Positions 4,505-30,531 of a stretch of DNA of 30,531 nt are shown in pieces. Both the position numbers and the translations under genes were made by a program. Origin of the DNA: a virus; the IMG/VR virus record IMGVR_UViG_3300023109_000084, positions 1 through 30,531 of that record, one strand, 5' to 3'. The stretch's first letter is position 1. Each line of letters begins with the position of its first letter. Below the pieces are notes generated by a model, which did not search any database, was not told where the DNA came from, and saw only the letters and a list, made by a program, of their open reading frames with translations.

Positions 4505-7500
4505 TATGCTACTCCATACGGATTAAGTATTCCGCCTGATCGTTTTTGGTTGTGTAGTTCCGTTTGAACTGCAGAGGCTACGGCGGCACCAAGCTTGTCC
4601 ATATCTGGTCCTGAACTGCCTTCTTTACTGCTTTGTCCGTCTGTAGATATATTAACTACAATATTATTGTTTGTTGCACCGCTGTCTTTCATATCTACAG
4701 GTATAGATCTTCCATTCGGCAAAGGAACTACTGCTTCTGTTCCGTGAAGAGTTGCTGGATATCCTGAAGTTGAGCCTCTTGCGACTCCTCCAGTTGCGTA
4801 TCCTTGCGTTTTTTTACCTTCTGAAAATACTCCTCCAGTTCTAGCAATAGCCGCTACATTATATCCTGAGGAAAAATCAGTCATTCCCGCATCAGTAGGT
4901 GCACCCATTCCAAAAGCACTCATAAGAACTCTCATAATCATCATTTGAGCAATCATTTGTGTGATTTGGGAAAGTATGCTTATTGCCATACTTTTGAAAG
5001 CCTCTTTTGCCGAAGCTGTTCCTGTAACAATTGAGGTAAAGGCGGCTGACATACTGCTTGCAATTCCATCAAAAAGTGCTTGTTTATTTTCTGCCAGTTT
5101 AGCAAGCATTGTTTGTGTTTTTATTTCCTCGTATAACAGGCCCTGCTCTGCAATTGTTAACTCTACTCCTTGACTTTTTAGTTCATTCATTTGAACATTG
5201 AAAGCCGTCATAGCAGGGTTCATAGATATAGATTGTACCTTTAGTTGCAGAGCTTCTGTCTCTCCCTTAGCGTTTAGTAGTACTAGCTCTTCTCTCTTTT
5301 TGTAAAGCTCTATCTCCTGGTTTAGAGAAGCTAAACGATTAGTAGCCCCTTGATTTGCTTTTTGAGCGTTAAAAGCGTTCATTGGATCATACCCTGGAGT
5401 TCCTTCTTTAGCCTTTTCAGCATCTACAATTTTTTGCGTATCTAATACATCTTGCTCTGCTTGTGAGCGCTTTGCATTTAGGTTAGTTTCAAAAGCTTTG
5501 TCTGCAGCCTGCCCTCGGGCTTGCCCAAATAAACCTGTCCCTCCTGCTTGAATATTTTTTAAAGCTAAAGAAGTACGAAAGATTGCGGTAGTTAAAGCCA
5601 GCCTTTTTCTTATTTGCTCATTTATAACTTTTTGCTGGTTCAGTTCAACAATCTTTATACTATTATTTTCTTCGCCTAATTCAATTTCTCTATTTGCTTG
5701 TTGTAACTTCTTTTCCCCTTCTATAATCTGTGCTCTTACTTGCTCGAGTGTAGTTATCTCTGTATCTAGTAAATTTTCTCGGGCTTTTCCGTTTTCATCT
5801 GTTAAAGAAACTTCTTGTGATCTTAAGAGTAAAAGTGCTTGCTGCTCGTCATTTGCAGATTTAGATAATATTAACCCCTGTGCTTGAACATTTTTTATCT
5901 TGTCCTCTATAGTTATTCCGTTTGTTCGCATTGCTGCGGCTTCTGTCTGTGCGGTTACTTGTTCATTACTTAGCCTTGTCATCTCGTCTTGATTTTCTTT
6001 TAGTGCTTCAGTAAAAAACTTATTAGTCTCTAACCTTTTACTTAAATCGCCCAGTGCGGAGTTTTGAAGATTTAGCTGCTCTACACTTCTAGCATGAATA
6101 TCTAGTATCTCTTGGGAGGGTTTGGCAAACACATCTACCATTTGAGGCTGGCCACTTAGGGTGGGTAGATCACTTTCTACTTGTCCAATTTTTAGACCTT
6201 TTCCATCTCTATCAATATTATGTTTCTTTTCGAACTCTTCTAACTGAGCGGCTTCTTTACCTAATTCAGTGCCCCTGGCTGCTAAAGCTACGGTTTGGGA
6301 ATCAATTACAGCAGTTAAAGAAGATTGAAGCTCTGAGGCAAAAGGTTTTTTGATGGTACCAGTAAGTTTAGTAAGCTGTGTATTCATTGCTGCAATTTTT
6401 GAAGGCAATCTATCAAGAGTTATTCCAACATTTTGTAAATCGTTTCCAAGATTTACCATGCTTAGTCGCTGCTCATCGGTTATCTTGGTTCCGCTATTTA
6501 AAGAAGCGGACAGAACTTTAAAGCCCTCATCTAATTCTCCGGCTGCATCTGCTGTTTTTATCATCCTTTCAAACATTTCATCGGGGATCATTCTATCGGG
6601 GTACATTTCAATAGCTTCATTTATTTCTTTAATCATAGAGGTCAAACCTAAACTACCCACAGCCTTTCCCCGTGTTTGTATCATGTCTGAGCCGTTAAGC
6701 ATGGTGTAGTCTTTCATAACATCTACAGTACGGCCGAGTTCCTCCCCTAAAGTTTTGTACTTACTAGTGAGTTCTTCTGTTCTTTTTTCTAATTTTTTTG
6801 TCTCCTCAGACATAGGATAGAAGTACTCTTTTATCATTTTCATGCCATCATAAGCTATTGAAAGCATAGATATCCAAAAGAAAGCCTTACCTATTACTGC
6901 TCCTGCTGTAGCTGCTGCTCCTGCTAACCCTGCGAAAGCAACCTTAGCTGTAGAAGCCATTGAGGTTAATTGTAGTTTAAAGCTTTTTATAGCTAAGCCT
7001 CCTTTTTTCAGTTGGAAGGCAAAGTCGGCCATGCCTTTTTTGTGTATGCCCGCCCTTATATTATAACTTTTTCGTAAATCGGCAACTTGTTGTGCATTCA
7101 TATTCTTTAAAAGACCTGTTCTCTTTTTTGCAGATTTTTTAAGTTGATTTTCAGCATTCAGAAGTGCTTTATCTGCCGCTCTCTGAGATCTTTTAGAGTC
7201 TGTGTTTCCCTTTAAAAAGTCTAATCCGCCCTGCCCTGACTTAGTACCTCCTGGCACCTCTGCGGCTATTTTTGCACCTGCTTTTTTAGCAATACTTGCA
7301 TCATTCATACGTGCAAGTTTTAATTTCTCATAACTTTTTTGTGTTCTTGCAAGTCTTAACTGAACAGCCTGCTGATCTCTTCCTACTTGTTTGGCAGTAG
7401 CTTGACTGGACTCTTTCCAGGCACTCATACTCGGAAGTACTTGCTTAAGTAAGCCGCCTGCAAATAAAGCTACTGCTCCCGTTAGTGCCATCATATTATT

Positions 7501-15298: not shown

Positions 15299-16472
15299 CT
15301 TCAGTCTCCTCAACTGGTCTGCCACCCTCGTCGGGGTTAGCTGCGGAACCTGCTATGTTTGCAGGTACTCTAATTTCTTCTGTTCCATCTATCTTAGGAA
15401 ACCCTAAGCGATCTCTAGCTTCTGCAGCAGTAATAATTCCACCATTTACTAGTGAAGTATAATAAGCTGACGCATCTCGTAGTTCCGGTGCTAAAGCCGG
15501 AATATCTGTAATGTCTTCGATACACTCAAAACCATAAAATCTTGTCATTGCAAAATTTAATTTTCGAACGATAGGAAGTATAGTCTCCAAATAATAAAGT
15601 CGTAAATTTGGACGAAGGTTAGCATTGTTACCTGAGTCTAAAAGAATTGGAGGAATTCCAAGTGCCTTTAAAATAATCTTTTCGTTTTCTAAAATTGCAC
15701 TTTGAAAATCTAAATCTTTAAAACTTACGTTTGTAATAGAGTCTACTTCAATACCACCATCTAAGATGAGAGGTCGTCGACCACCTGCATCTGGTCTATA
15801 GCGTTGTTGCCAAGCTAAGATCATGCGGTCTTTAATTTTGTCAGAAAGGGTGTTAGGCGACTTGAGTACAAGTCCTGGAACTGCACCGTTCTTAAAGAAG
15901 TTATCCTGAAATTTACGCATAGATTGAATAAGATTCATAGTACGCGCTGCAGGACTTAAACGGGGAACACCACGGTAAATAGAGTGAAAAGAGTTCTCTT
16001 TAACATGAATAATCTCATCAACAGTATAGTCTATATCTAGCAAAGAGTAGTGAGAGATAAAGGTCTTTTCGTCTGCATGTACTGTTACTTTATCAGCAGG
16101 TAGATGGTACATATGAGCACCATCATAGTAAATAAAGATATTACCGTCAATAAGAAAGTCAGTAATTAAGTTTCTACGAAAAGAGTTAATATCTTGATAA
16201 GGGTTAGGCTCTCGATTAAGTAGAGTCTCTACTTTAGATCGTTTAATGCCTTTGATAACGCCTTTAGTATTTGTGTTAGGCTTAACAAGAGTAGGAATCT
16301 CAGCAACATCATCTACGATCATGTTTACACCGCGATTTACAATTTCCAGCTCTTCGTAAGCACGCTCATAGCTAAGAGTATTCTCTCGCGAGCTTTCCTT
16401 TATCGCAACGTCATGAAACTGCGCAGGATTTAGCTTTTCGGTTCTTCCTAGGATATTATTATACCAAGCCAT
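15291..16472 (-). CDS. Portal protein (HK97 family)
   Basis: 393 aa, the usual HK97-type portal length. Family features: N-terminal YERAYEELEIVNRGVNMIVDDVAEIPT, the central wing/stem segments (FQDNFFKNGAVPGLVL; LDFQSAILENEKIILKALGIPP) and the C-terminal clip region (NGGIITAAEARDRLGFPKIDG), all strongly typical. It forms the dodecameric DNA gate at one capsid vertex. The start overlaps the HNH gene by 14 bases; the 3' end is followed by the small Pro-rich gene and the protease-capsid fusion. Confidence 0.94.
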   Translation of the reverse strand: MAWYNNILGRTEKLNPAQFHDVAIKESSRENTLSYERAYEELEIVNRGVNMIVDDVAEIPTLVKPNTNTKGVIKGIKRSKVETLLNREPNPYQDINSFRRNLITDFLIDGNIFIYYDGAHMYHLPADKVTVHADEKTFISHYSLLDIDYTVDEIIHVKENSFHSIYRGVPRLSPAARTMNLIQSMRKFQDNFFKNGAVPGLVLKSPNTLSDKIKDRMILAWQQRYRPDAGGRRPLILDGGIEVDSITNVSFKDLDFQSAILENEKIILKALGIPPILLDSGNNANLRPNLRLYYLETILPIVRKLNFAMTRFYGFECIEDITDIPALAPELRDASAYYTSLVNGGIITAAEARDRLGFPKIDGTEEIRVPANIAGSAANPDEGGRPVEETEDE

Positions 16473-16909: not shown

Positions 16910-18214
16910 CTAGAAGGATACGGATGCAGTTATAAATGAATATAGTGCGTATCTTAAACCGTCTGCCATGTGAGAAGCCATATTGTGCTTAGGTTTTTCA
17001 CGAGCTAAGTTTGGGTTAGGATCCCACTGATAAGAATCTAAACAAATGAGGGACTCTTTGCACTGTTGATCGACGTAAAGGTTGTCATTGTCAACGAGGC
17101 TTGATACATGACCAATTCCGTCCAATACAGACTTCTTAGCGTTAATGGTGGAGATGCCATAATTCTGCGCGAGATCGAACCTTGTTTGTTGAGCAGCTGA
17201 GTCAATATAAATAAAATCAATATCCCAACGATCAATAAGTTTCTGTATTTCAATAGCATGTTGTTCGGTTGTCCTTTCTGCGTTAAGGTACTCATCTACT
17301 AAGTAGTATTTTCCTGCGTCCCAATCGTATGCAATTACACACAATGCTGTGGGATCTTTGTATCCTACGTCTAAACCTGCGAACACGTCCATCTTTGAGG
17401 TGTCTAGCTGAGATAAGTCTTTCACCTGAGTCTCAAAGTTAAACTTCCATATCTGACCTTCATAAGTATTAAAGTCAGCTTCATACTCTTGCTTAAATTC
17501 TGCGTCTGACATAGACTTACGTGCTTCTGCTATATCAGATTCGGACATACGAGGGTTGTCTCTATAAGTTGCTCGTATGCTACACCATTCTGGGAAATCT
17601 TTTGAGAACCCACGATAGAAAAACTCAGAAAACCAGTTGTTCCGACCCCGTGGCGTGGAAATAAATATTGCTTTTGAGTTTTCTTTGTCGAGAGTGGGTC
17701 GAAGTGCAACGTTGAAGGCATCCTTGCCGTCAGCGAGTGCTGCCTCATCAAAGATGATAAGGTCATAAGATCTACCTACGCAAGAATCGACTTGGTTAAC
17801 CGAGCCCATTCTTACAGTAGATCCATTAGAGATTTCGATAACTTTGTCCTTTGCGTTATCTTTTGTAACCTCTAAGTCGAAGTGCTTAATTAGGTTTCTT
17901 TGCAGATCAAAAGAGATCTGAGACAAAGCATAGTTGGGTGACATAATTAAAATGTTAGAGCCAGGCACTAAAGACACGAGCTGTCCAATAATGTTGGCAA
18001 TGTATGTTTTGCCTTGCCGACGAGAGACGGCGGCAGAGACAAAACGGTACTTTGGATTGTTAATCGCGTTGATAATTGCTATCTGCGAAGGTAACGGTGT
18101 GACGTTCAATAGATCCAGATATGGGCCTATAGGAAGTTTCAAGAACTTTGCCTCAGATCCTAATTCAACTATTTCATCAGAGATAACATCTCTGCGACTT
18201 ACTTCAACTGCCAT
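16910..18214 (-). CDS. terL: Terminase large subunit
   Basis: 434 aa. The ATPase half has Walker A SRRQGKT (64-70) and Walker B LIIFDE (152-157), followed by the coupling motif FISTPRG (184-190). The nuclease half shows the RNase H-like acidic set: Asp282 (GLDVGYKDPTA), Asp338 (FIYIDSAAQQ) and Asp418 (HMADGLRYAL). It powers DNA translocation through the portal and cuts the concatemer. The terminase pair is split here: seven small genes lie between the small-subunit gene (20536) and this one, all in one P3-driven operon. Identity is secure. Confidence 0.96.
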   Translation of the reverse strand: MAVEVSRRDVISDEIVELGSEAKFLKLPIGPYLDLLNVTPLPSQIAIINAINNPKYRFVSAAVSRRQGKTYIANIIGQLVSLVPGSNILIMSPNYALSQISFDLQRNLIKHFDLEVTKDNAKDKVIEISNGSTVRMGSVNQVDSCVGRSYDLIIFDEAALADGKDAFNVALRPTLDKENSKAIFISTPRGRNNWFSEFFYRGFSKDFPEWCSIRATYRDNPRMSESDIAEARKSMSDAEFKQEYEADFNTYEGQIWKFNFETQVKDLSQLDTSKMDVFAGLDVGYKDPTALCVIAYDWDAGKYYLVDEYLNAERTTEQHAIEIQKLIDRWDIDFIYIDSAAQQTRFDLAQNYGISTINAKKSVLDGIGHVSSLVDNDNLYVDQQCKESLICLDSYQWDPNPNLAREKPKHNMASHMADGLRYALYSFITASVSF

Positions 18215-19821: not shown

Positions 19822-20088
19822 TTAGACTCCTTGCATAGTTACCAGGGTTACAATTACACCCGCCAGGAACAATATAATGGTTCCGCCTAATGTTAACATT
19901 CTTTGATCCATTTTACTAAGTTGCTCATCTATACTTTCAAGTCTTTGAAAAGTAGTCTTCCAGCGCTCTTCACACTGAACCTCATGCATTCGGTGCTCCA
20001 TCTCAAGTTTATCTACTTGTCGAGTGGTTTCTAAAAACCTCTCTGTTGTACTTACCGTCCAGTTGACGTCATTAGGATTCGTTGCCAT
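19822..20088 (-). CDS. Coiled-coil protein with C-terminal membrane anchor (XhlA-like)
   Basis: 88 aa from ATG 20088, which overlaps the terminase small-subunit end by 17 bases; a start at 20115 is an alternative with a comparable ribosome site. Residues 14-64 are an amphipathic coiled coil (RFLETTRQVDKLEMEHRMHE, RLESIDEQLSKMDQRM), and 66-85 a single membrane span (LTLGGTIILFLAGVIVTLV). This layout is that of XhlA-type haemolysin/holin partners seen in phage lysis regions. Function is inferred from layout and context. Confidence 0.68.
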   Translation of the reverse strand: MATNPNDVNWTVSTTERFLETTRQVDKLEMEHRMHEVQCEERWKTTFQRLESIDEQLSKMDQRMLTLGGTIILFLAGVIVTLVTMQGV

Positions 20089-20536
20089 TGAGTAGTTTTT
20101 CCATGAGCTTGCCATAATTACCCTGACCGAAGGGTACAGACTCATTAATCTGTACATTGGTTTGGTTCTTTATGTTGCTTCCTTCGGCTTTAGCAAGATC
20201 TGCCTGCGCCTTGATCTCGTCAATACGCATTTTATGAGCCATTTGTAATAGATCAGCTAAGTCTTTACTAGAGTAGACGCCAGATTCCTGGGCTTCTTCG
20301 AGTTTAGATGCGATCATCTCGTCTAATAAGGAACCGATGTTGTTCTTGTTTCGGTATCCCATATCTAAATATACAGTATCAATGTATTTCTTTACTTCTC
20401 GCTTATTCAACACATCTACTACTTGTGATTCGGATACCTGAAGGTACTCGCATACACCGCGAATGTTGCCGTACTGTAGATAACTATTCGCTATCTCTAG
20501 TCCTTCAGGAGAAATTGTAGTTAGTTCTTTTGCCAT
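20072..20536 (-). CDS. terS: Terminase small subunit
   Basis: 154 aa. An N-terminal helix-turn-helix-like part (SPEGLEIANSYLQYGNIRGV, LQVSESQVVDVLNKREVKKY) is followed by a long oligomerisation helix (NIGSLLDEMIASKLEEAQES, LADLLQMAHKMRIDEIKAQA) and a polar C-terminus that would contact the large subunit. This is the layout of small terminases that bind the packaging site. The start ATG lies exactly seven bases after the -10 of P3, so its mRNA should be nearly or fully leaderless. The large subunit is seven genes further on. Confidence 0.8.
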   Translation of the reverse strand: MAKELTTISPEGLEIANSYLQYGNIRGVCEYLQVSESQVVDVLNKREVKKYIDTVYLDMGYRNKNNIGSLLDEMIASKLEEAQESGVYSSKDLADLLQMAHKMRIDEIKAQADLAKAEGSNIKNQTNVQINESVPFGQGNYGKLMEKLLNGNES

Positions 20537-27957: not shown

Positions 27958-28009
27958 GGAGGGGAGCGCGGCCGCGCGGCTTATAACCAAGTCGTCTAAC
28001 CGCCCCTCC
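27958..28009. other. GC-rich palindromic island in the divergent intergenic region
   Basis: GGAGGGG (27958-27964) pairs with CCCCTCC (28003-28009); inside lies a perfect 12-bp palindrome GCGCGGCCGCGC (27966-27977). A T-run (TTTTTT at 28018-28023) follows on the plus strand, so it could be a rightward terminator. However, no rightward gene lies to its left, and it stands between divergent promoters P6 and the early promoter. Replication origin, packaging site or protein-binding site are alternatives. The rest of 27843-28122 holds only promoters. Confidence 0.6.
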
Positions 28010-28059
28010 CCTTATGCTTTTTTATTCTAAAAAACATGCAGAAAAATTTTATTATTTAC

Positions 28060-28087
28060 TTGACGGATTCGCTGGGCGTGCTATAAT
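28060..28087 (+). promoter_or_regulatory. Rightward early promoter
   Basis: TTGACG (28060-28065), 16-bp spacer, TATAAT (28082-28087), preceded by an A/T-rich tract. It heads the rightward genes; the 5' leader carries AGGGAAGGG before the ATG at 28123. Start site near 28094. Confidence 0.82.
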
Positions 28088-28122
28088 ATCACCTCATTAG
28101 ACAGATAGGGAAGGGCTTCACC

Positions 28123-28284
28123 ATGGCATTATTTACAATCGTTTTAAACGTTTTTTTGATCCTTTGCGCGGCTCTTGCGTTCGTTATCTCGTTTCTTGGT
28201 GGCGTGGGCTGGCTGGCTCTGGTTATGGTTCCAGTTATGGCCGCGCTAATTTTTTCTTTAAATTCTCTAATAAAGGCTTGCTAA
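28123..28284 (+). CDS. Small membrane protein, first rightward gene
   Basis: 53 aa, ATG 28123 with GGGAAGGG upstream. Almost wholly hydrophobic: MALFTIVLNVFLILCAALAF followed by GGVGWLALVMVPVMAALIF, consistent with two membrane spans. The stop region overlaps the next promoter. A longer frame beginning at 28164 overlaps it and is not preferred. No family recognised; tiny membrane proteins at the head of phage early operons often act on the host envelope, but there is no direct evidence here. Confidence 0.72.
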   Translation: MALFTIVLNVFLILCAALAFVISFLGGVGWLALVMVPVMAALIFSLNSLIKAC

Positions 28285-28306
28285 TGCTTGCACTCTATGA
28301 TAGAAT
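28278..28306 (+). promoter_or_regulatory. Second rightward promoter
   Basis: TTGCTA (28278-28283), 17-bp spacer, TAGAAT (28301-28306), overlapping the end of the first rightward gene and preceding the 100-aa gene at 28344. Matches are 4/6 and 5/6 to consensus, so moderate. Confidence 0.5.
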
Positions 28307-28343
28307 AGCATCTCTTTACAATTACTTACTAGGATATAAAATT

Positions 28344-28646
28344 ATGACTGATATTAACTACACTCCCGAAATGGTCGCGGTTCTTAAAGCGGCTCAACCT
28401 ATCAACTATGCTAAGGCTCAAGAATTAGCCAAGCAATTAGATCGAGGCGTTCGTTCTATCATCGCCAAGACTAAGCGCGAGGGCTTCGACTATATCAGCA
28501 AGCCAGCACCAGCCAAGAAAAAAGCGGCACCTAGCAAGGCCGATATGGTCGCGGCAATCTGCGCGGCAGTCGATACTGACTCGCTTGACGGGCTAGAAAA
28601 GGCTACTGGCTCGGCTCTAAATAAATTACTTTCATCGCTTGCATAA
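28344..28646 (+). CDS. Small probable DNA-binding protein
   Basis: 100 aa from ATG 28344 (the frame is open upstream to 28164, but that part overlaps the first membrane protein and lacks a ribosome site). The pattern DINYTPEMVAVLKAAQPINY, then AKAQELAKQLDRGVRSIIAK and TKREGFDYIS is a helix-turn-helix-like domain that I associate with early genes of marine and Vibrio phages ('nyt.emv..l......n...a..lA..lgk..rSviaK.krlg'). An Ala/Lys/Pro linker (PAPAKKKAAPSK) leads to a short helical C-terminus (residues 68-100). Likely regulates phage or host transcription; the target is unknown. Confidence 0.75.
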   Translation: MTDINYTPEMVAVLKAAQPINYAKAQELAKQLDRGVRSIIAKTKREGFDYISKPAPAKKKAAPSKADMVAAICAAVDTDSLDGLEKATGSALNKLLSSLA

Positions 28647-28667
28647 CTAGGGAAAGGCCTGTATAAT
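28639..28667 (+). promoter_or_regulatory. Third rightward promoter
   Basis: TTGCAT (28639-28644), 17-bp spacer, TATAAT (28662-28667). It begins inside the end of the DNA-binding protein gene and would serve the genes from 28695 on. Its -10 lies in the centre of a perfect palindrome (separate entry). Confidence 0.65.
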
Positions 28668-28675
28668 CAGGCCTT
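28654..28675. promoter_or_regulatory. Palindrome centred on the -10: probable operator
   Basis: AAGGCCTG (28654-28661), TATAAT, CAGGCCTT (28668-28675): a perfect 8-bp inverted repeat whose 6-base centre is the -10 hexamer. A dimeric regulator bound here would occlude RNA polymerase; the HTH-like protein just upstream is an obvious candidate (inference). As RNA it would form a hairpin without a U-run, so a terminator is less likely. Confidence 0.6.
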
Positions 28676-28694
28676 AACCACCGGAGATTTAATT

Positions 28695-28895
28695 ATGAAT
28701 AATACAACTGCTACTGCTATTGGATACGTTGGCGCAATCGTCATGGCTCTGTTCTCTTTTACTATGCTACCGGCCATTGCTATTCTCGGCCTTGCTTTGC
28801 TGACCGTCCAAATGACATACGCCAGAATCTGGAATCTGGTTGTTCTTAACTTGGTATCAATTGGCGGCTTTGCTGTTCAATTGATGGGAGCGTAA
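28695..28895 (+). CDS. Small membrane protein with three hydrophobic segments
   Basis: 66 aa, ATG 28695 after CCGGAGAT. Hydrophobic stretches at about 8-25 (AIGYVGAIVMALFSFTML), 27-41 (AIAILGLALLTVQM) and 47-64 (NLVVLNLVSIGGFAVQL), separated by short loops. I associate the layout and the 'TAIGYVG.' start with unannotated small proteins of marine phages. The function is unknown; no catalytic motif. Confidence 0.72.
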   Translation: MNNTTATAIGYVGAIVMALFSFTMLPAIAILGLALLTVQMTYARIWNLVVLNLVSIGGFAVQLMGA

Positions 28896-28898
28896 ATC

Positions 28899-29375
28899 AT
28901 GCAATATAAAATTTGGGACTTAGACGGAACCGTGATCGACTCAAGCCACCGATATTCGACCTTGCCAAATGGTGATATAGATCTGCCGAAATGGATCGCT
29001 GACAATACACGCGAGAACATTGAGCAAGATAAATTGCTACCATTGGCGCGGTTGATGCAATCCAATTATGCTAACGGTGATATTGTTATTATCTGTACTG
29101 CTCGCGTTCTGGGTGTTTGGGATCACGTTTTTTTAGCTGACCACGGTATCAAGGCGCAATTTATTCTCTCTCGCGCACTTGGTGATAATCGCGGTGACGC
29201 TGAAATGAAACGCGCTAAACTTATTGCGCTATTCGCTGATCTCAAAATACCTTTTGCAAGATGGACTCGTAACGCTACATTCTACGATGATAATCAAGGC
29301 GTGTTAGATATGGCAGAAAAAATTGGCATTCGCACAAGAAATGCTGTAAAATTAAATCTTCAATTAAGGGCTTAA
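28899..29375 (+). CDS. HAD-superfamily phosphatase
   Basis: 158 aa, ATG 28899 with GGGAG upstream, 3 bases after the preceding gene. All HAD motifs are visible: motif I WDLDGTVID (Asp7 nucleophile, Asp9 acid/base), motif II IICTAR (Thr67), a lysine around 104-107 (MKRAKL), and motif IV FYDDNQG (Asp130-Asp131). The body between I and II is short and typical of the phage polynucleotide-kinase-phosphatase-like HAD proteins (cf. T4 Pnkp phosphatase domain). No kinase P-loop is present. Likely removes phosphates from nucleotides or nucleic-acid ends; substrate not determinable. Confidence 0.85.
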   Translation: MQYKIWDLDGTVIDSSHRYSTLPNGDIDLPKWIADNTRENIEQDKLLPLARLMQSNYANGDIVIICTARVLGVWDHVFLADHGIKAQFILSRALGDNRGDAEMKRAKLIALFADLKIPFARWTRNATFYDDNQGVLDMAEKIGIRTRNAVKLNLQLRA

Positions 29376-29378
29376 ACC

Positions 29379-30029
29379 ATGAAACATTTTTATCTGATCG
29401 TAGACACTGAGACAACCAAAAAACAGACCGTTGCCGATTTTGGCGCGGTAATCGTAACCAAGCAAGGCGAGATTGTCGAACAGGTCGGCCACCTTGTAAA
29501 CGGACATTTTGGTAAATTCCCTTTATTCTCTGACCCACTAGCTGACCCTGACGCATTTTGGTCAGAGCAGAGCGCACACCGTAGGCTCAAGGATTATGAC
29601 CAAATGGTCGAAGATGGTCACCGTTCAATTGCCTCGGTTGGCTTAATCAATCAATGGTTGGTGCGCGTCAATGCTCAATATGCCCCTGTTTTGACCGCCT
29701 ACAATATATCTTTCGATCTTGGAAAATGCCGCAATACTCGCATTAATCTGGGCATTTTTGCAGAGCGTTTTTGTCTGATGAAAGCGGCCAAGCGTAAAAT
29801 TGGGGTTCTGGCAGAATATCAACAATTCTGCATAGATCGCGGCCTCTTGACTGCTAAGGGACGCAAGCCGCAAATGACAGCGGACGCAATGGCAAAATTT
29901 ATTCTAGGCGATTCGCTAGAAGATGAACCTCACACCGCGCTAGAAGATGCGCGAGATTATGAGGCCGCAATTTTAACTCACATTCTGCGCGATACAACCC
30001 GCGCTCAACTTCTGGAGCTAGGACGATGA
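29379..30029 (+). CDS. DnaQ-like (DEDDh) 3'-5' exonuclease
   Basis: 216 aa, ATG 29379, 3 bases after the HAD gene. Motif I FYLIVDTETT (Asp9, Glu11), motif II AYNISFDLGK (Asp113), and motif III PHTALEDARD (His185, Asp190) give the DEDDh set of DnaQ/RNase T exonucleases. The size fits a stand-alone enzyme. It may proofread, degrade RNA or DNA ends, or recycle host nucleic acid; the adjoining HAD phosphatase suggests an end-processing pair. A weak hydrophobic or DNA-contact feature is not visible. Its stop overlaps the next start as ATGA. Confidence 0.88.
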   Translation: MKHFYLIVDTETTKKQTVADFGAVIVTKQGEIVEQVGHLVNGHFGKFPLFSDPLADPDAFWSEQSAHRRLKDYDQMVEDGHRSIASVGLINQWLVRVNAQYAPVLTAYNISFDLGKCRNTRINLGIFAERFCLMKAAKRKIGVLAEYQQFCIDRGLLTAKGRKPQMTADAMAKFILGDSLEDEPHTALEDARDYEAAILTHILRDTTRAQLLELGR

Positions 30030-30151
30030 GCTTACTACCTAAAGATGAGGCGGAGCTACTCCGCCTTAAAATGCAAATGGAAATAATCAGAACCGTTTGC
30101 CCTTTAATGATGATTATGATACAGCTTTTTATTATCGTTAAAATTTACTAG
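30026..30151 (+). CDS. Small membrane-associated peptide
   Basis: 41 aa; ATG 30026 overlaps the exonuclease stop as ATGA, with GGAGCTAGGA upstream. A short charged N-terminus (SLLPKDEAELLRLKMQM) is followed by a hydrophobic C-terminal span (PLMMIMIQLFIIVKIY). It is the last rightward gene in the window. Coupling and ribosome site support it; no family recognised. Confidence 0.6.
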   Translation: MSLLPKDEAELLRLKMQMEIIRTVCPLMMIMIQLFIIVKIY

Positions 30152-30160
30152 GCAAGAATC

Positions 30161-30203
30161 ATGCCAACTATAAATGCGGATGAGAACCATTCGCATTTGG
30201 CAT
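30161..30203 (+). other. Stem-loop abutting the parS-like site
   Basis: AAATGCG (30172-30178) pairs with CGCATTT (30192-30198); an outer ATGCC (30161-30165) pairs with GGCAT (30199-30203) across a bulge. It lies 10 bases after the last rightward stop, where an RNA 3' structure is expected, but there is no U-run. It ends on the first base of the parS-like palindrome. Confidence 0.5.
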
Positions 30204-30218
30204 GTTCCACGTGGAACA
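30203..30218. promoter_or_regulatory. parS-like centromere palindrome
   Basis: TGTTCCACGTGGAACA is a perfect 16-bp palindrome matching the bacterial chromosomal ParB/Spo0J site consensus (TGTTNCACGTGNAACA) at every defined position. Chance occurrence in one 30-kb window is very unlikely (14 fixed positions). No ParA or ParB is encoded in the window, so it would bind the host ParB or one encoded elsewhere on the genome. Confidence 0.82.
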
Positions 30219-30228
30219 CTCCGCGCTG

Positions 30229-30266
30229 AAAAAATCTGAGAAAAAGCTTGACTTTCCCAGATTTTT
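30229..30266 (-). terminator. Intrinsic terminator of the leftward small RNA
   Basis: On the minus strand AAAAATCTG (30266-30258) pairs with CAGATTTTT (30238-30230), with partial inner pairing GGAAAG/CTTTTTC around a short loop, ending in a run of six T. The U-run is partly in the stem, as in symmetric phage terminators, so it may also end rightward transcripts. Confidence 0.6.
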
Positions 30267-30288
30267 GGCGCGGGGGCGCCAGTAGTAG
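30267..30288. repeat. 22-bp GC-rich direct repeat, copy 1
   Basis: GGCGCGGGGGCGCC followed by AGTAGTAG. The first 14 bases form a GGCGC/GCGCC hairpin with a four-base loop. Identical to copy 2 (113 bp away). Function unknown; both copies lie in the candidate RNA. Confidence 0.9.
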
Positions 30289-30379
30289 GTCAACGATTGT
30301 TTTAGCATGGGCCTCAAAAACGTGTGACCAACTTTCCACCAATTGGTCGAGTCTTTTTTGAGCATCGGGTTGACAAATC

Positions 30380-30401
30380 GGCGCGGGGGCGCCAGTAGTA
30401 G
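30380..30401. repeat. 22-bp GC-rich direct repeat, copy 2
   Basis: Identical to copy 1 at 30267-30288 over all 22 bases. On the minus strand this hairpin is additionally enclosed by CAAATCG and CGATTTG, giving a two-step stem. Confidence 0.9.
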
Positions 30402-30435
30402 TACGACGACGATTTGCGTCGGATGCTCCGCGCCG

Positions 30436-30471
30436 ATTATAGTACAGTTGCGATGCGATGTCAAGTCTTTT
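30436..30471 (-). promoter_or_regulatory. Promoter P7 (leftward, into the gene-free region)
   Basis: A-rich upstream tract, TTGACA (30464-30459), 17-bp spacer, TATAAT (30441-30436). Full consensus, same design as P1-P6, but no recognisable leftward gene lies before the terminator at 30229. Confidence 0.88.
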
Positions 30472-30531
30472 CTGTGACTTTGAGCATATTCGAGCAACTA
30501 TTTTCCGATTGCTCAAAAAGGCGCCGAAAAC

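Follow-up and report, generated by a model that had tools for sequence, protein, structure and literature searches.

A conserved chromosomal-type parS palindrome in an uncultured T5-like phage and its relatives

A 16-bp palindrome of the chromosomal parS type was found in the window, that is, the whole 30,531-bp stretch of DNA analysed here, an IMG/VR virus record classed as linear and a fragment of an uncultured T5-like phage. A chromosomal-type parS is kept in most relatives of this phage and ParB was undetected, which is most simply read as recruitment of host ParB. With a slight lean in its favour, we read the palindrome as a working parS for the host chromosomal ParB, through which ParB, and then ParA and SMC, would be loaded onto the phage genome. 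The phage would probably borrow a host protein for the handling of its own genome. If host ParB does load, phages would hijack the machinery of bacterial chromosome segregation by means of a DNA tag of 16 bp, while encoding no partition protein themselves. Phage genome handling would then be tied to ParABS-SMC by a signature searchable in any phage, and the old question of how phage genomes take up positions and stay separate in the cell would become testable.

The palindrome and its surroundings in the window

A perfect chromosomal-type parS palindrome had been reported at 30203-30218 in a preliminary description of this DNA, and our analysis confirmed it. TGTTCCACGTGGAACA (30203..30218, no strand assigned) is a perfect palindrome that agrees with TGTTNCACGTGNAACA at 14/14 fixed bases, with no mismatches. 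The full TGTTNCACGTGNAACA pattern occurs at a single position of the 30,531-bp record; being palindromic, the match is reported for either strand. The pattern read backwards gave no match there. A scan allowing up to 3 mismatches gave four matches, namely TGTTCCACGTGGAACA with none and three others with 3 mismatches each; the shuffled window gave a mean of 1.0 matches in all at the same threshold. The chance of a full match in 30.5 kb is about 1e-4 by an arithmetic estimate. Conservation in relatives is a stronger argument for the site than this within-window chance.

Homologues of the T5-type terminase, portal and terminal-region genes place the phage among the T5-like phages. The terminase large subunit (TerL; 16910..18214, minus strand) is 48.6% identical to that of T5 and the portal 38.9%. 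A match to T5 sciB lies at 20072-20536 (37.9% identity), and a homologue of the T5 deoxynucleoside monophosphatase gene dmp at 28899..29375 on the plus strand (E 6e-14, 30.3% identity). An exonuclease-like gene (29379..30029, plus strand; phrog_20187, phrog_192) adjoins the palindrome. Tail, head and packaging genes are on the minus strand of the window. DNA similarity between 28000-30531 and the named phage collection was not detected. The 82,805-bp record G027 of the relative L031 ends with an identical copy of its first 4,911 bp, so that the unit measures 77,894 bp. The relative G001 encodes both ribonucleotide reductase chains, DNA polymerase A, a DnaB-type helicase, parts of an NAD ligase and ThyX; a gene for a Radical SAM/SPASM protein lies amid its replication genes (L155 418-1332, minus strand). 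The relative L002 carries an IscU/NifU-like iron-sulphur scaffold gene (5828-6268, minus strand), which matches one in Phage C48C1 at 65% and contains a tandem duplication of 22 residues. This gene was tried as a pointer to the host and rejected, as its best match was 63% and matches came from many phyla, and short-peptide seeding may miss nearer ones. The hairpin motif of the clade, tried for the same purpose, had no match in genome_contigs.

Several elements lie beside the palindrome. Just upstream is a predicted repeat, TGAGAACCATTCGCA (30181..30195, no strand assigned), of the TGAGAANCATTCTCA type, which we take to be a putative Fur box. Such Fur-like boxes were located within 120 bp upstream of the site in 16/38 carrier loci, with a mean of 0.02 after letters were shuffled singly. 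The box near parS suggests a region that may dock more than one host protein. Directly after the palindrome comes an imperfect inverted repeat (30221..30275, no strand assigned; arms 30221-30243 and 30253-30275, 78% complementary). It was considered as a terminator and rejected, being absent from the list of the terminator scan. A conserved motif, GGCGCGGGGGCGCC followed by AGTAGTAG, begins 64 bp past the start of parS (copy 1, 30267..30296) and is repeated with 90% identity (copy 2, 30380..30409), neither copy having an assigned strand. A consensus sigma-70-type promoter (30436..30464, minus strand), matching 12 of 12 positions by pattern match only, points towards parS. The stretch 30267-30464, with its two motif copies and the promoter facing parS, may represent a small RNA or some other cis-acting element. 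Rfam at gathering thresholds gave nothing in the window, with one sub-threshold match in 29900-30531 at E values up to 1, and no tRNA was found. T5 has DnaA boxes, and GCGCGG presumably resembles the T5 nick sites.

Conservation of the site in the window clade

Relatives were gathered by two routes. By the first, the adjacent exonuclease gene served as query and gave 31 relatives, 23 of which (23/31) have parS at 0-1 mismatch downstream of that gene. Five of the eight without the site (L003, L011, L020, L026 and L028) have less than 30 bp of sequence there; the others have 486 bp (L018), 6,000 bp (L004) and 1,898 bp (L005). Four of the 31 relative contigs (L003, L011, L020 and L028) end inside the exonuclease gene, perhaps at assembly breaks. 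By the second route, the motif GGCGCGGGGGCGCCAGTAGTA, which in the window likewise begins 64 bp past the start of parS, was searched in viral loci and parS was sought 400 bp either side of it. Forty of the 50 motif loci carry parS at 0-1 mismatch, always upstream of the motif, at 38-210 bp. In L177 and L214, two of the ten loci without it, the upstream sequence is just 14 and 83 bp long; the remaining non-carriers are L179, L185, L191, L208, L210, L212, L223 and L224. No 0-1 mismatch parS was found elsewhere in the records of these ten, except one in the record of L214. Only matches at 0-1 mismatch were used throughout because the reversed pattern also matches at up to 2 mismatches, as it did in 6/28 records.

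The pooled set comprised 83 sequences, 77 with a relaxed form of the motif, and a requirement of at least 200 bp upstream left 45 distinct loci. The preliminary description had proposed comparison with relatives as a check on the palindrome, and the site withstood it: parS at 0-1 mismatch lies within 260 bp of the motif in 38 of the 45 distinct loci, 27 of the 38 being exact, and 7/45 lack it, their records being free of 0-1 mismatch sites in other places too. The furthest copy, that of L029, is 260 bp from the motif. Most records hold one parS; a second copy lies nearby in L017 and L203. After removal of the window and of L377, which was found by a parS scan, 36 of 43 distinct loci carry parS, for which the fair comparator is the chance of a 0-1 mismatch parS, about 4e-5 per locus.

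When 37 carrier loci were aligned at the site, the flanks showed identities of 0.268 and 0.302, and the best 16-bp flank window 0.339; the identity of 0.963 at the 14 fixed positions arises partly by construction, as the carriers were chosen at 0-1 mismatch. Since the flanks of different carriers are as unlike as random DNA, recent common descent is not the explanation for the parS of the clade. Among the 38 carriers the pairs at positions 5/12 were C/G in 24, T/A in 9, C/A in 4 and T/G in 1, and the 11 single-mismatch copies have their mismatch at position 1, 8, 9 or 16. The letters seen at the 5/12 pairs also appear in chromosomal parS consensi, that of P. aeruginosa being given as TGTTCCACGtGGAACa in PMC7022226. 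The palindrome is thus conserved under selection in the clade (38/45 distinct loci), with variation as in chromosomal parS sites.

Occurrence in other viral contigs

The exact 16-mer occurs in at least 120 loci of IMG/VR viral_contigs, and two permuted palindromes of the same letters occur in 2 and 5 loci of IMG/VR. The loci listed for the exact 16-mer were pooled with those of a consensus scan to give 214 carrier loci. The motif of the window clade was present in 3/214 of these, and either the motif or at least two clade proteins in 11/214.

Some of the wider carrier contigs may be host DNA, as several loci hold more than one site, up to five in L064. This is what could favour an origin of the site by chance or from host DNA misassembled into virus contigs, a reading to which we give almost no weight. 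The clade and podovirus sets were collected by phage genes or a phage motif, the chance per locus is as small as given above, and the site has a fixed place in the clade. For the window clade this reading is already refuted.

It is also improbable, in our judgement, that another phage or host protein reads the palindrome and that its likeness to parS is a resemblance only. ParB binding is predicted here from the sequence, and remote DNA-binding proteins may escape profile searches. Against such a reader, the letters tolerated are those of parS, and the site recurs in phages with few or no detected proteins common to the clade.

The 214 loci contain 252 sites, 98 outside and 154 inside naive ORFs, which cover 88% of bases; the 154 sites inside ORFs were counted against the reading as a working parS.

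The site in podoviruses and in named phages

The largest carrier cluster (19/214 loci) has a portal like that of DSL-LC04 and of Pelagibacter phages HTVC023P and HTVC027P, and a second cluster of five carriers has a terminase like that of the same group. Relatives were taken by the portal of one carrier (the best 80 of at least 600) and by the head protein of another (the best 80 of 597). Both sets include near-copies and consist of phages closely related to carriers rather than drawn at random; exclusion of the queries left 79 in each. In these best-80 sets parS at 0-1 mismatch was present in 29/79 portal relatives (25 exact) and 10/79 head-protein relatives (8 exact), and each of six permuted control palindromes was present in 0/79 of both.

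In the podoviruses the site follows the head-protein gene, precedes terL or falls within a gene of 43-55 aa behind the portal. Among the best-80 portal relatives, all 13 that code V-(S/P)-R-(E/G)-T in the small gene (13/13) use the codons GTT, CGT and ACA, and the same stretch of the gene differs in other subgroups. The residues vary only where parS tolerates change, and selection therefore appears to act on the DNA. This small gene, ending in YRKDAFK, contains parS in L421 (L089 contig), L422, L424-L428, L430-L432, L436, L438 and L365, and its coded residues change only at parS positions 5 and 12. Paired sites, one of the C/G form and one of the T/A form, 23-24 bp apart, were seen in L348 (3372-3411), L376 (14-52) and L386 (5089-5128); the pairs of L348 and L386 directly precede terL.

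One-mismatch sites were present in 3/12 named records, HTVC027P (CGTTTCACGTGAAACA), HTVC023P (TGTTACACATGTAACA) and CRP-810 (TGTTCCACGTGGAACC); the other nine of the 12 had no parS at 0-1 mismatch. The expected number of one-mismatch sites in the 804 kb of the 12 records is 0.13, and the probability of three or more about 3e-4. The sites of HTVC027P and HTVC023P are intergenic and that of CRP-810 is within a gene. Pelagibacter phage HTVC027P, with its site at 16412-16427 between two genes, offers a cultured entry point.

These positions bear on whether the role of the site is local. By such a reading, ParB at the site would control the neighbouring genes or the small-RNA-like region, or would act as a road-block or a pause in DNA entry like the T5 injection stop signal. 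In its favour, the clade keeps the site at a constant position, most motif loci having it 38-210 bp upstream of the motif, in the company of a consensus promoter, a Fur-like box and a dmp homologue, dmp being a T5 terminal-repeat gene; the varied places of the podovirus sites speak against it. No T5 A1 was detected in the window (best E 0.32), and A2 matched weakly and elsewhere. The injection-stop analogy was kept within this minor rival because dmp alone speaks for it, and a local role as a whole is rather unlikely. Silencing of flanking genes as a general role is less likely, since other phages carry the site beside other genes. As the genes beside parS differ between unrelated phages, whatever the phage gains most likely involves its DNA molecule as a whole and not a single neighbouring gene. 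The fixed position in the clade is not required by a whole-molecule role and counts against it.

Searches for partition and integrase genes

ParB_N (PF02195) was detected in 0/29 records (the window and 28 of the 31 relatives), with 10/14 control genomes positive. In the 7 larger records, HTH_ParB (PF17762; controls 9/14), ParA-type AAA_31 (PF13614; controls 14/14) and the tyrosine phage integrase (PF00589; controls 14/14) were each found in 0/7. The records searched for partition genes are fragments, except G027, which closes on itself. ParB_N was likewise detected in 0/44 wider carrier records; these were the records above 15 kb among 80 loci listed, and one of the 44, L061, belongs to the window clade.

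Neither ParB nor ParA of an own ParABS system was thus detected in the records searched, and the statement of the preliminary description that the window has no parA/parB agrees with the PF02195, PF17762 and PF13614 searches. That description had offered both recruitment of host ParB and, for a plasmid-like prophage state, a centromere of the phage itself. The kept site and undetected ParB point to the former; the latter found no support, as ParB_N, HTH_ParB, ParA and phage integrase were not found, the closed 82,805-bp relative included. Partition genes or a tyrosine integrase (PF00589) that would mark a plasmid-like or integrating prophage were not found, and with PF00589 as the lifestyle marker searched the window phage is read as a lytic-type T5-like phage.

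Proposed mechanism

According to a survey of the ParB fold (PMC12704722), ParB bound at parS closes into a CTP clamp that slides; ParB is also described as an adaptor to ParA and Smc (PMC8494293). After injection, host ParB would bind the phage parS, close as a clamp and slide outward over the phage genome. The clamped ParB would bring ParA and SMC, which may place, separate or condense the incoming and replicating phage genomes. The site may also bear on host range because it must suit the ParB of the host.

A broader proposal stands, in our estimation, at even chances. Centromere piracy would be widespread: several unrelated lytic-type aquatic phage lineages, with a host-type parS and no ParB, would exploit clamps of host ParB together with SMC, either for placing, separating or condensing their own genomes or for crippling segregation in the host, and the site of the T5-like clade would lie in a docking region often equipped with a Fur-type box.

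The main rival is titration, a possibility if an unlikely one, in which replicating phage genomes, each offering a parS, would tie up host ParB, and SMC, through clamp loading, thereby halting host chromosome segregation and division. The site data fit titration and use of ParB for the phage genome alike, as does independence from gene context, and the parS mimics of SGI1 also destabilise their helper plasmid (PMC10954446). The records mostly hold one site, whereas a decoy might have many, and a lytic phage has little obvious need to block segregation in a cell that is to be lysed.

Comparison with known systems

No publication on phages with a host-type parS and without ParB was found in open PMC, and one may exist; parS and ParB are not mentioned in the paper on HTVC023P-type phages (PMC9599517), and a text search of PMC7333895 gave no hits. 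T5-like phages (Demerecviridae) have TerL, portal, sciB and dmp homologues in common with the window phage. A parS at 0-1 mismatch is missing from T5 and seven other named T5-like records, of which four come from Vibrio and one from Aeromonas; these eight and the 7/45 non-carrier loci were counted against the reading as a working parS.

Phages with partition genes are described, among them extrachromosomal mycobacterial prophages with their own (PMC7157519) and the S. epidermidis phage Lacachita with a ParB-like gene (PMC10286716). These encode partition proteins, whereas only a site was found in the window phage. Phage lambda engineered to carry parS serves as a tracer (PMC13190303).

The 16-bp sequence is the same as the chromosomal parS of ParABS-SMC (Spo0J-type) and identical to the P. 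aeruginosa consensus as given in PMC7022226. Unlike chromosomal parS, it is phage-borne and not near a chromosomal origin, and no ParA or ParB was detected in the phage. The closest precedent for carrying a site alone is SGI1, whose parS mimics hijack the ParABS of IncC plasmids (PMC10954446). Like SGI1, which uses the ParB of another replicon, the window phage is a mobile element in which only the site was found. SGI1, for which alone stabilisation is shown, mimics the parS of a plasmid and parasitises a plasmid; the window phage appears to be a lytic-type phage, and its site is of the chromosomal type.
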